Shown here one piece after another: positions 9,456 to 30,159 of a DNA stretch of 64,000 bases. The stretch's first letter is position 1, and each line of letters opens with the position of its first letter. The position numbers and the translations under genes were made by a program. The notes beneath the pieces are model-generated. The model worked only from the letters and a program-made list of their open reading frames with translations, was not told the origin of the DNA and ran no database searches. The stretch is from assembly GCF_963664965.1 (NCBI RefSeq), contig NZ_OY761823.1, positions 2,312,001 to 2,376,000 on the forward strand. Direction: 5' to 3'. The stretch comes from an uncultured Pseudodesulfovibrio sp. (GTDB lineage Bacteria; Desulfobacterota; Desulfovibrionia; Desulfovibrionales; Desulfovibrionaceae).

Positions 9456-9776
9456 ATGGGATTTTTGGGCTCGATAGTCCAGGCGGCGGCATTCGTTCTT
9501 GATGCCGTACTCAGCATATATTTTTGGATTGTTATCATTTCCGCACTGCTTTCCTGGGTCAATCCTGATCCTTACAACCCCATCGTGCGCTTTTTGCGTG
9601 GGGTGACCGAACCTGTATTTTACAAGATTCGCAGCTGGATACCTTTTGCCGTGGTCGGTGGTTTCGACCTTTCACCCATAGTGGTGCTGCTCGGTATCCA
9701 GGTCTGCAAGATCGTTGTGGTCCAGAATCTTGCCCGCCTTGCTTTCAGCTTGGGCGGCGGTTCTCCCATGATGTAG
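9456..9776 (+). CDS. YggT-family membrane protein
   Basis: This 106-residue integral membrane protein matches the YggT pattern: a hydrophobic N-terminal helix, SALLSWVNPDPYNPIVRFL with the Asn-Pro turn, TEPVFYKIRSWIP, and FDLSPIVVLLGIQ before a second helix. Family members are often found beside cell-division genes and have been linked to osmotic stress, but biochemistry is sparse. The ATG at 9456 follows TTGGAGG; the TTG at 9444 is part of that site. The DivIVA-domain gene follows 27 bases later, the usual context. Confidence 0.9.
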   Translation: MGFLGSIVQAAAFVLDAVLSIYFWIVIISALLSWVNPDPYNPIVRFLRGVTEPVFYKIRSWIPFAVVGGFDLSPIVVLLGIQVCKIVVVQNLARLAFSLGGGSPMM

Positions 9777-9803
9777 GTGCGTAGTTTACGCAGGAGGTCT
9801 GTC

Positions 9804-10307
9804 ATGACGGTTTCCAAGATCGATTTGCTTAACAAGCAGTTTTCCCGACGGATGTTCGGGTATTCTCGCATGGAAGTTGATCAGTTCATGCTGGAACTGG
9901 CTGAAGTGCTCGGTGATGCCGCAGACAGCCAGAAGGGGCTGCGCCGGAAGATAAAACAGCTTGAAAAGTCGGTGAAGGAGTATCGTCAGCGGGATGAGAC
10001 CTTGCGCGATACGCTCATGAGCACGCAGAAAATGGTTGATGACCTCAAGGTAACGGCCAGCAAGGAAGCGCAGCTCATCATCGACGAGGCCCGTGCCAAG
10101 GCGGATGCCACGGTGCAGAAGGGACACAACAGACTGGCTCAGATTCATGAGGAGATTGAGACACTCAAGCGGCAGCGCACCCGGTTTGAGGTGCAGCTCA
10201 AAGGGTTGCTCAAATCCCATCTGGAAATGCTGGATGTGAGTGATCCGGAAAAGGAAAAGGCCGAAGAGCTTGAGTCAAAGCTCAAATATCTTAAAAAAGT
10301 GGATTAA
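9804..10307 (+). CDS. DivIVA-domain coiled-coil protein
   Basis: A 167-residue protein starting with the DivIVA membrane-binding region (KIDLLNKQFSRRMFGYSRMEVDQFM) followed by a long coiled coil with regular Lys/Arg/Glu heptads (about residues 45-160). DivIVA proteins bind curved membrane at poles or septa and recruit partners; in this lineage the role is unknown. The start at 9804 has AGGAGG five bases upstream. It lies between yggT and yggU, the conserved yggT-divIVA-yggU neighbourhood. Confidence 0.88.
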   Translation: MTVSKIDLLNKQFSRRMFGYSRMEVDQFMLELAEVLGDAADSQKGLRRKIKQLEKSVKEYRQRDETLRDTLMSTQKMVDDLKVTASKEAQLIIDEARAKADATVQKGHNRLAQIHEEIETLKRQRTRFEVQLKGLLKSHLEMLDVSDPEKEKAEELESKLKYLKKVD

Positions 10308-10378
10308 GGCGGGACTGTCATATCTCCCAACCAGAATTTATCAGCAGAAGCACGGATGGATGGCGCATTGCCGTCTGG

Positions 10379-10630
10379 GTGCAGCCGGGAGCCCGTAAAA
10401 GCGGGGTTGTCGGCTTGTATCAGCAGTGTGTCAAAATCCGTCTTAACGCTCCTGCTGTGGACAACAAAGCCAACAAGGCGCTTACGGCCTATGTGGCGAA
10501 GTTGTTGCATGTGAAAAAAAGCCAGGTGCGGCTTGAGGCAGGCCAGACCAGCCGAAAGAAGCGCTTGGCTGTGATTACTGCGGCGGAACCCGATTGGAGT
10601 GTGTTCACTGAAGAGGGTTCATCGCAATAA
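10379..10630 (+). CDS. YggU-family (DUF167) protein; true start probably upstream
   Basis: The 83-residue product from GTG 10379 has the DUF167 core (KIRLNAPAVDNKANKAL, then VRLEAGQTSRKK). The first beta strand of the family, DGWRIAVWVQPGARKS, is encoded directly upstream in the same frame from about 10355, so the GTG start would cut the fold. No ATG, GTG or TTG exists between the in-frame stop at 10292 and the GTG. ATC at 10322 (giving a Met-Ser-Gln-Pro-Glu-Phe start) is the most attractive alternative, with GGCGGGA a little upstream. Function of the family is not established. Confidence 0.85.
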   Translation: MQPGARKSGVVGLYQQCVKIRLNAPAVDNKANKALTAYVAKLLHVKKSQVRLEAGQTSRKKRLAVITAAEPDWSVFTEEGSSQ

Positions 10631-26818: not shown

Positions 26819-27775
26819 CTACTGATATAACCAACACGCTACATGTGTGCTGGATGCCAGCTCGCGAAGTGGCGGACGGGCGTTGGCGCATTGATCGAAT
26901 GCCTTGGGGCAGCGTGGGTGAAACGGACAGCCCGTTGGCGGGTTCATGGGGCTTGGCAAGTCGCCGGAGAGCGGAATTCGCTCTGATTTTGCCGTCGGGT
27001 CCGGTGGCAGAACAGCCGAGAGCAGGGCCTCGGTATACGGATGCTTGGGGGACGCGAATATGCGTTCACTAGGTGCCAGTTCCATCAACCTGCCGAGATA
27101 CATGACCGCCACACGGTCAGAGATGTGACTGATCACGGAAAGATCGTGTGATATGAAAACATATGTTAAATCAAGCTGTTTCTGAAGATTTTTGAGTAAA
27201 CTGAGCACCTGTGCCTGTACGGAGACGTCAAGCGCCGAGACCGGTTCGTCACAGACGATGAGTTGCGGATCGAGTGCCAGTGTGCGGGCTATGGCAATAC
27301 GTTGCCGCTGGCCGCCTGAAAATTCGTGAGGATATCGTGCGCCATGTTCCGGCCTCAGGCCGACGAGGTCGAGAAGCCTGTCCGCTTTTTCCTTGCGTTC
27401 AGCAGAAGTGCCTATGCCGTGAATATCCAGTCCTTCCCGTATGATGGAGCGAACTTTCTGACGTGGATTCAATGACGAGTACGGGTCTTGAAAAATCATT
27501 TGTATCTGGCGGCGGAGGTCTTTTTCTTTCCACTCGCTGAGTCGGCGGCCCTGAAAGAGAATTTCACCGGACGTGGTACTTTCCAGTCCCATGATGCATT
27601 TGGCCAGAGTGGATTTGCCGCAACCGGATTCTCCTACCAGTCCGAGGGTTTCTCCTTTGTTCACGGTCAGGTTGATGCCGTCCACGGCACGCACGGTGTC
27701 GGACTTGAGACCCATGAGGCCGCTTGTCACCTTGAAATGTTTGCTGACGTCGAGCAGTTCGAGAAAGGCGGAAAT
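26819..27775 (-). CDS. dipeptide/oligopeptide-type ABC ATPase (DppF/OppF-like), putative AUU start
   Basis: A 318-residue ATPase with Walker [10 protein letters not shown], signature [12 protein letters not shown], Walker B IVCDEP and the C-terminal oligopeptide-transporter motif with Cys ([15 protein letters not shown]) that can bind an iron-sulfur cluster or zinc. The N-terminus needed for the fold ([19 protein letters not shown]) has no ATG, GTG or TTG. AGGAGG sits eight bases before ATT at 27775, and the frame upstream hits the dppD-like stop. A GTG start at 27730 would remove the first strand. It follows the DppD-like gene closely. Confidence 0.9.
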
Positions 27776-27787
27776 GGCAGTGTCCTC

Positions 27788-28753
27788 CTATTCGTACAGC
27801 CAGCAGCGTACGTGCCGGCCGGGTTCTGCTTCCATGAGCGGAGGCTGGATGAGTGAACATTTCGCATGCGCGTGAGGGCAGCGTGGGTGGAAGCTGCATC
27901 CCGCCGGTCGGTCGAAAATGCTTGGTACGATACCGGGAATCGGGGTCAGGTCTGTTTTGTCTCCCATGGTCGGGACCGAGGCGAGCAGACCTTGCGTGTA
28001 TGGATGAAGTGGTTTCGCATACAGTGATTTGCTGGTTGAAAGTTCAACGATTTTGCCGGAGTACATGACGGCGACCCGTTGGGCCATGCGGGCGACCACG
28101 CCGAGATCATGTGTGATGAGCATGAGCGATCCATTCATGCGTTCCTTGAGGTCGTTCATCAGGTCGATAATCTGGCTCTGGATGGTGACGTCGAGGGCCG
28201 TGGTCGGTTCGTCGGCAATGAGAATGTCCGGGTTGCAGGCGAGGGCCATTGCGATCATCACCCGCTGTCGCATGCCGCCGGAAAGTTCATGCGGATATGC
28301 CCGTGCTATTTTGGCCGGATTCGGAATACCGACGAGTTCCAGGGCAGAGACGGCTTTTTCCAGCGCTTCGGCTTTGCCGTATCCCTGATGGAGGCGGAGC
28401 GGTTCGGCGATCTGGTCGTTGATGCGGAACACCGGATTGAGCGCGGTCATGGGTTCCTGAAAGATCATGGAGATGTGGTTGCCCCGTATGGTGCGTAGCT
28501 CGTTTTCCTCCATATCGAGAAGGTCTTGCCCTCGGTAGAGAATGCTGCCTTCAGTGACACGACCGGGCGGGTCGGGTATGAGTCCGAGTATGGACAGGGC
28601 CAGTACGGTTTTCCCGCAGCCGGATTCGCCGACCACGGCGAGGGTTTCTCCTTGCATAAAGGCAAGGCTGACGGTATCCACCGCCTTGGCAATGCCCTGA
28701 GGCGAGGAAAAGCAGGTTGTCAGCTTGCGTATGTCCAGAAGCGGGGTGCTCAT
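27788..28753 (-). CDS. dipeptide/oligopeptide-type ABC ATPase (DppD/OppD-like)
   Basis: The 321-residue protein carries Walker A GESGCGKT, signature [12 protein letters not shown], Walker [13 protein letters not shown] and the [15 protein letters not shown] tail of the oligopeptide ABC family. With the DppF-like protein it would form the ATPase pair of a peptide or nickel importer. No substrate-binding protein or permease gene is adjacent; the divergent neighbour is trmFO. The ATG at 28753 ([11 protein letters not shown]) is preferred over the longer frame to 28795. Confidence 0.92.
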
Positions 28754-28830
28754 AATGAATTCCACAGGTTCTCCGTTTGAGTCCATATACGGCATATCGC
28801 GGTGAACGTAAACGATATCGGGGATATGAA

Positions 28831-30159
28831 ATGGCGAAGGTAGTTATTGTCGGCGGCGGTTTGGCTGGATGTGATTGTGCATGGCAGCTTGCCGAGGCGG
28901 GCGTTGCGGTTGAATTGTATGAAATGAAACCGGAAAAGCACTCCGAGGCGCATACCGAGGACGGACTGGCAGAGCTGGTCTGTTCCAATTCATTTCGTGC
29001 GACCGGACCTGCGGCAGCCATCGGCCTGCTCAAGGAAGAGATGCAGGCGCTTGGCAGTCTGATCATGGAAGCCGCTCATGCCACCAAGGTTCCTGCGGGC
29101 GGTGCCTTGGCTGTTGATAGGGCGCTTTTCTCCGATTACATCACCGATAAAATCGAGAATCATGCCAATATCAGCGTGATTCGCAAAGAAGTCACTTCCC
29201 TTGATGCCGAGGAATTGGCCGGTGCTGACGGCGTCGTCATCGCGGCTGGTCCTCTTGCCAGTCCCGAACTGACTGAAAGCCTTATTCAGGCTGTTGGCAA
29301 CGAACGGTTGTATTTCTATGATGCCATCGCCCCGATCATTTCCCGTGATTCCGTGGACTTCGACAAGGCGTTCTGGGGTTCTCGCTGGAAGCCCGAGGAT
29401 GATGATTACCTGAATTGCCCCATGGACGAGGACGAATACAAGGCGTTCGTGGCTGCACTTCTTGAGGGTGAGAAGGTCAAACCCCGCGAGTTTGAGAAGG
29501 AAAAGCATTTCGAGGCGTGCCTGCCGGTGGAAGCCATGGCAGAGCGAGGGGAGATGACGTTGGCTTTCGGACCTCTCAAGCCGGTGGGCTTCGTCGATCC
29601 CAAGACCGGGGAGCGTCCGTTCGCCATTGTGCAGTTACGCACCGAGAACAAGGAAAAGACCGCGTTCAATCTCGTCGGGTTTCAGACAAAACTCAAATAT
29701 CCCGAGCAGAAACGGATATTCCGCATGATTCCCGGATTGGAGAACGCCGAGTTTCTCCGGCTTGGCTCCATTCACCGCAATACGTATGTCAACGCGCCGG
29801 ACGTGCTGAACGAGCACCTTGAACTTAAGGCGCGGCCCGGATTTTATCTTGCCGGACAGATTACGGGTGTCGAAGGGTATCTGGAGTCTGCTGCCTGTGG
29901 GCTTTGGCTTGGCTTGTCGCTGGCGAAACAGCTTGGCGGCGGATCAGTGGCTAATCCGCCGAAGGAGACGGCTCTGGGGGCGCTTCTGGGGCATTTGGGC
30001 ACGCAGCCGGACAAGGAGTTTCAGCCGTCTAATGTAAATTTCGGCCTGATGCCGGGACTCAAAAAGAAAATGAAGAAGAAGCTTCGCAAGGAAGCATACG
30101 GCAAAAGGGCGCAGGAAGCCTTTGCCGCATGGCTTGCCGAGACCAGACTGGCCGGATGA
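28831..30159 (+). CDS. trmFO: methylenetetrahydrofolate-tRNA-(uracil-5-)-methyltransferase TrmFO
   Basis: TrmFO makes m5U54 in tRNA using methylene-THF and FADH2. The 442-residue protein has the N-terminal FAD motif GGGLAGCDCAWQL, the family segments ELVCSNSFRA and YLAGQITGVEGYLESAACG (FAD-binding). The ATG at 28831 is in register with homologues; the frame is open upstream to 28777 but that part is not conserved. Divergent from the ABC ATPase pair. Confidence 0.96.
   Translation: MAKVVIVGGGLAGCDCAWQLAEAGVAVELYEMKPEKHSEAHTEDGLAELVCSNSFRATGPAAAIGLLKEEMQALGSLIMEAAHATKVPAGGALAVDRALFSDYITDKIENHANISVIRKEVTSLDAEELAGADGVVIAAGPLASPELTESLIQAVGNERLYFYDAIAPIISRDSVDFDKAFWGSRWKPEDDDYLNCPMDEDEYKAFVAALLEGEKVKPREFEKEKHFEACLPVEAMAERGEMTLAFGPLKPVGFVDPKTGERPFAIVQLRTENKEKTAFNLVGFQTKLKYPEQKRIFRMIPGLENAEFLRLGSIHRNTYVNAPDVLNEHLELKARPGFYLAGQITGVEGYLESAACGLWLGLSLAKQLGGGSVANPPKETALGALLGHLGTQPDKEFQPSNVNFGLMPGLKKKMKKKLRKEAYGKRAQEAFAAWLAETRLAG

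Follow-up and report, generated by a model that had tools for sequence, protein, structure and literature searches.

Where does the translation of a gene begin when its reading frame offers no canonical start codon ahead of sequence that is typical of its protein family? The question is raised by a pair of ABC ATPase genes, dppD-like and dppF-like, in a stretch of 64,000 nucleotides (the window) from the genome of an uncultured Pseudodesulfovibrio sp., here designated G000. A preliminary description of the window had proposed that dppF starts at AUU. The comparison of related genomes indicates that the dppF-like gene very probably starts at AUU 27775 and not at AUG. The shorthand AUH is used below for AUU, AUC or AUA.

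The minus-strand dppF frame contains no ATG, GTG or TTG between the dppD stop codon, TAG 27790-27788, and GTG 27730; reading of the frame confirmed this claim of the preliminary description. The TAG, which shares the reading frame of dppF, is followed by GAG GAC ACT GCC and then by ATT 27775-27773. After the ATT come TCC GCC TTT CTC GAA CTG CTC GAC GTC AGC AAA CAT TTC AAG, and then GTG 27730-27728. The AGGAGG that had been placed eight bases before the ATT is indeed present, at 27789-27784. A CUG at codon 7 (27757) was considered as a start and ruled out, because the codon is CTC in three related genomes (G001, G002 and G012). The features are collected in Table 1.

Table 1. Features of the dppF locus and of two other genes with probable AUH starts (feature, position, strand, remarks; positions are those of the window unless a contig or locus is named)
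dppF-like ABC ATPase gene, 318 aa from AUU	26819..27775	-	PF00005, PF08352; NF008453 417.2 bits, cut-off 408
dppD-like ABC ATPase gene upstream of dppF	27788..28795	-	TAG 27790-27788 overlaps SD; own start may be internal ATG
AUU (ATT), very probable start codon of dppF-like gene	27773..27775	-	no canonical codon before 27730; AUU/AUC/AUA at orthologous site in 7/31 genus genomes
AGGAGG, Shine-Dalgarno (SD) sequence	27784..27789	-	overlaps dppD stop, 8 nt before ATT; duplex energy with ACCUCCUUA -10.2 kcal/mol
GTG, first canonical start codon of dppF frame	27728..27730	-	position not conserved, unlikely start
DUF167/YggU-like gene, 102 aa, start ATC 10322-10324	10322..10630	+	PF02594
folK, preferred start AUC	G000:C1:2468555-2469082 (L196:18555-19082)	-	AUC behind GGAGG; overlaps 3' end of aminotransferase-like frame

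The dppF product contains the ABC_tran (PF00005, 128.9 bits) and oligo_HPY (PF08352, 71.8 bits) domains. It passes the NCBIfam subfamily model NF008453 (Table 1) and misses the DppF equivalog model NF043071, with 372.6 bits against the 660 required, and is therefore labelled only DppF-like. Residues 4-315 of the product align with a solved DppF structure (8z1w_D, residues 12-324 of the chain), so that the stretch before the GTG belongs to the family. The earlier claim that this stretch is the family's own sequence is borne out, as the alignment sets in long before residue 16, the GTG. The dppD and dppF genes (26819-28795, minus strand) stand together as a pair of ATPase genes and diverge from a gene at 28777-30159 (plus strand) which we take to be trmFO-like. 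Of the open reading frames listed for 24-33 kb of the window, none was recognised as encoding a permease or a binding protein. Near 36.9 kb, what had looked like a frame break turned out to be an ordinary solute-binding protein gene.

The orthologous start codon was read in 31 genomes of the genus. It is AUG in 24 of them, AUU in four (G000, G001, G002 and G012), AUC in two (G022 and G029) and AUA in one (G010); neither GUG nor UUG was found at the site in any of the 31. All 36 genus genomes had a match at E 0.001, many of these matches being other ABC ATPases. The 31 starts comprise 30 loci and G011 (L114); G030, whose match starts only at residue 54, and G003, G017, G024 and G028, which had no match at E 1e-118, were left out. 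In the six AUG-less genomes other than G000 the aligned codon is without exception AUU, AUC or AUA, which places the pattern beyond chance. Outside the genus, no AUH start was found at the site in 38 loci; in each of them the frame holds a canonical codon within the stretch from 51 nt before the aligned position to 9 nt after it. These loci came from a listing of 40 places, from which G066 and G078 were left out; two further stretches fetched alongside them were G011 and a G010 paralog. The conservation of AUU, which the preliminary description had raised as a question, is thus partial: it extends to four genus genomes, or to seven if AUC and AUA are counted, and is set against AUG in most of the genus and canonical codons in other genera.

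The same comparison bears on whether the AUU is real and whether it is used. The probability that a single-base sequencing or assembly error turned ATG into ATT is negligible. Nothing apart from the rarity of AUU speaks for such an error, the possibility of which had been raised at the outset, and the site reads ATT in three further genomes (G001, G002 and G012), ATC in two (G022 and G029) and ATA in one (G010); on this comparison, an error is very unlikely for the site taken as a class. There is a very slim chance that dppF starts at GTG 27730 and that the preceding 15 codons are untranslated. No canonical codon precedes that GTG in the frame, and gene finders restricted to ATG, GTG and TTG would pick it. 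However, residues 4-15 lie inside the match to the solved DppF and the changes there in the nearer genomes are mostly at third positions. Across codons 2-16, the five nearer genomes (10 pairs) have 29, 18 and 54 differences at codon positions 1, 2 and 3, and residues 2-16 are conserved as protein; for all seven AUH genomes (21 pairs) the counts are 121, 62 and 152, a weaker bias. The first later canonical codon, moreover, moves among the seven genomes (+15 GTG in G000; +9 GTG in G001, G002 and G012; +19 ATG in G022; +27 GTG in G010; +33 GTG in G029), while the AUH codon and its SD stay fixed, which makes a later start unlikely. Homologues that begin at the later GTG, whose existence would have spoken against the AUU, were looked for and not seen among the seven.

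Readthrough of the dppD TAG would yield a DppD-DppF fusion, for which a dppF start is unneeded. In all seven AUH genomes the dppD stop codon is in the dppF frame and is followed by the AUH codon at a distance of 15 or 18 nt, and chains with two ATPase domains exist elsewhere (8j5q and 8wd9, with two matched stretches each). The linker between stop and AUH codon, however, shows no conservation at the protein level (EDTA, EDAA, EDAA, EVSA, EGLA, PEGTT, TEGTA), and an indel divides the AUH genomes into two groups, one with a TAG stop and the other with TAA. Readthrough would leave the strong SD purposeless. The dppD stop is in the dppF frame in 12 of 23 AUG loci as well (read by eye), and the DUF167 gene described below has a similar start, yet the stop of its preceding gene is out of its frame in G000. 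Readthrough thus retains a slim chance.

The strength of the SD sequence separates the two classes of loci. The best SD duplex with ACCUCCUUA, the matching 16S end having been seen in G001 (L215) and no copy found in the stretches of G000 examined, has an energy of -10.0 to -10.9 kcal/mol in the seven AUH loci versus -4.0 to -7.3 kcal/mol in the 23 AUG loci. The two ranges do not overlap (Mann-Whitney p 7e-5 for the 30 genus loci, without kinship correction). The AUU start put forward in the preliminary description is therefore well supported by the genus comparison, both by the presence of AUH in seven of 31 genomes and by the SD strength. On a tree of DppD and DppF, four AUH/AUG changes are needed. 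Supported branches provide two independent AUH/AUG contrasts, each of which goes the way expected (sign test p 0.5); in this branch test the AUH state stood in for the SD trait, following the non-overlapping duplex energies. A single clade of five AUH genomes (without G010 and G029) is not rejected (p-AU 0.125), nor is one of four (also without G022; p-AU 0.37), so that there were two to four start-codon changes, which could have gone in either direction. Predicted mRNA folding around the start does not differ between AUH and AUG loci (p 0.21). Compensation of the weak AUH codon by a strong SD is suggestive, and no firmer than that because there are just two independent contrasts with p 0.5. 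In Belinky et al. 2017 (PMC5622118), SD compensation is described for GUG and UUG starts, and one AUG-to-AUU switch is given among 61,358 reconstructed AUG starts. Against that figure, two to four changes in one gene of one genus are unusual.

The explanation that fits best, and which we regard as highly probable, is that dppF is translated from AUU 27775 as a weak site with a strong SD, coupled to dppD. We infer the steps as follows. A ribosome ending dppD at UAG 27790, which the AGGAGG overlaps, would re-initiate with fMet-tRNA on the AUU that lies 12 nt further downstream; alternatively, a new 30S subunit would bind. The weak AUU codon would lower the yield of dppF, and the strong SD together with the coupling to dppD would recover part of the loss, thereby setting the level of DppF relative to that of DppD. 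A high level of IF3 may reduce the yield of dppF, since in other bacteria IF3 rejects AUU. The discrimination of IF3 against codons other than AUG, GUG and UUG is described in PMC4611024. According to PMC2268962, excess IF3 in E. coli inhibits non-canonical start codons and lowers re-initiation, less so with an SD. By analogy, control of dppF by the IF3 level is plausible, because infC of the same genome starts at AUA.

A serious rival to this account accepts the AUU start and disputes only its meaning. It holds that changes in the start codon became almost neutral behind a strong SD and that the codon decayed to AUU without any regulatory role; we put its probability at a little below even. 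It accords with the confinement of AUH to part of the genus, G025 and others having AUG, and with the variation of the third base (T, C or A) among the AUH genomes. Against it, the first two bases of the start codon are invariant in all seven, and GUG and UUG, the commoner substitutes, are unseen at the site.

The infC gene is present in all 36 genus genomes, and ATA stands behind an SD in all 30 of the genus loci compared, from which AUH-class start codons appear to be used in this lineage. In G000 (L111, G000:C1 about 1661300) the AUA start of infC overlaps the end of an apparent thrS. Exceptions among the 30 are four loci with an in-frame ATG six codons later (L156, L157, L158 and L166) and one with an in-frame TTG far upstream (L161). 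Of 30 loci searched in other genera the core was located in 28, where the codon behind the SD is ATA in 23 and ATC in five; one of the five (L305) has an ATA further upstream as well. A canonical codon is present somewhere in the frame in seven of these 28.

Two further genes were found by a screen of 400 kb of G000 versus 400 kb each of G001 and G004. The screen covered 317 open frames that do not overlap and that have a homologue (some of them rRNA or other false frames). Three genes lacked a canonical codon and had AUH behind an SD in both genomes, a rate of about 1% that is indicative only. In a decoy control, 15 triplet families gave 0 to 3 genes each; CAH gave three, the same number as ATH, and several families repeated the same three genes. 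The filter alone is therefore not significant, and the claim is carried by genus-wide alignments.

The first canonical codon in the frame of the DUF167 gene is a GTG inside the DUF167 domain. Among 30 genus loci (32 of 36 genomes matched), the aligned start is AUU in 19, AUC in five and neither in six (G004, G010, G017, G019, G029 and G035); in G025, AUU/AUC stands one codon later than the aligned site. The start is less sure in seven of the 24, namely G016 and G021, with a canonical codon slightly upstream, and G005, G006, G007, G023 and G031, with GTG four codons in. Neither AUU nor AUC occurs at the position in 28 loci of other genera (counted by eye), and 26 of these have a canonical codon there or at most 36 nt upstream. 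The DUF167 gene has a weaker SD (AAGGCGGG) than dppF, so that a strong SD is no rule for all of these genes.

In the folK frame of G000 no ATG, GTG or TTG occurs until codon 64. GGAGG-N4-ATC is present in all 30 genus loci; in 30 loci of other genera the site holds AUC in 14, GUC in three, GUU in three and something else in ten (counted by eye). The frame that overlaps the folK start is presumably aminotransferase-like. An ATC at its stop codon was ruled out as the folK start, the codon being AAC or AAT in G004, G020, G027 and G013, and the AUC 21 nt (7 codons) upstream of it is preferred on the alignment. At or adjacent to the rejected site, GTG occurs in nine of the 30 genus loci and ATG in one (G019), and those genes may start there. 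The folK start is less sure because of the overlapping coding sequence and of the GTG or ATG near the core in ten of the 30. A separate observation concerns a gene on the minus strand of L200 (about 9607-10330), presumably PTS-permease-like, in which, as in its G004 counterpart, the ATG and the gene body lie in different frames. In both species the frame changes at a T9 run (GCTTTTTTTTTGCCC), a candidate for transcriptional slippage or programmed frameshifting.

The statement in the preliminary description that AUU starts are very rare needs qualifying for this lineage, since infC, the DUF167 gene and probably folK are also without a canonical start; the AUU start of dppF itself stands. It is conceivable, although we think it unlikely, that the lineage runs a small set of genes governed by IF3: infC (AUA), folK (AUC, in places GUC/GUU), the DUF167 gene (AUU/AUC) and dppF of several species. 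The level of IF3 would then tie the supply of ribosomes to the making of folate and the uptake of peptides, and dppF would have been recruited recently and more than once, its SD becoming stronger on each occasion. If this were true, genes governed by IF3 would be invisible to gene finders that accept only ATG, GTG and TTG. Such programs shorten or miss proteins: 15 residues of DppF, 19 of the 102 of the DUF167 protein and about 60 of FolK are at stake. Well-supported AUU, AUC or AUA starts beyond infC are few, and a single gene that has AUG or one of the AUH codons depending on the species of the genus, and an SD that tracks the codon, is a natural experiment on the trade-off between start codon and SD. 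Whether a set of genes responds to IF3 in bacteria other than the usual models becomes a testable question.

In the open literature, which most subscription papers lie outside, no report was found, among the papers listed, of an AUU-start dppF or of ATT or other non-canonical starts in Desulfovibrio. The start codon of infC, the gene of IF3, is AUU in E. coli and AUA in S. aureus. Like infC, which is subject to IF3 discrimination, dppF has an AUH codon with an SD; unlike it, dppF encodes no IF3, so that any effect of IF3 would be one-way, without an autoregulatory loop. In contrast to infC of this lineage, the AUH codon of dppF is patchy within the genus. Another AUU start belongs to pcnB, whose product is poly(A) polymerase; Binns and Masters reportedly described it in E. 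coli in 2002. Like pcnB, which is limited by its AUU, dppF is a gene other than infC with an AUU start, but it stands second in a pair of ATPase genes. Conserved AUA/AUU starts with an extended SD are described for S. aureus ccpN and cvfC1 in PMC13009471, where AUU/AUA reporters reach about 10% of AUG in poor medium and one up to 30% in rich medium. These starts were shown by profiling and reporters and belong to a Firmicute regulator and a small protein, whereas that of dppF is proposed from sequence. The GTC start of Streptomyces sigR is repressed by IF3, as stated in PMC5472188. It resembles that of dppF in being non-canonical and is itself tied to IF3; it differs in its GUC codon, in encoding a sigma factor and in having been shown experimentally. 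The dppF-like gene would thus join infC, pcnB and S. aureus ccpN and cvfC1 among the known genes with non-canonical AUH starts.
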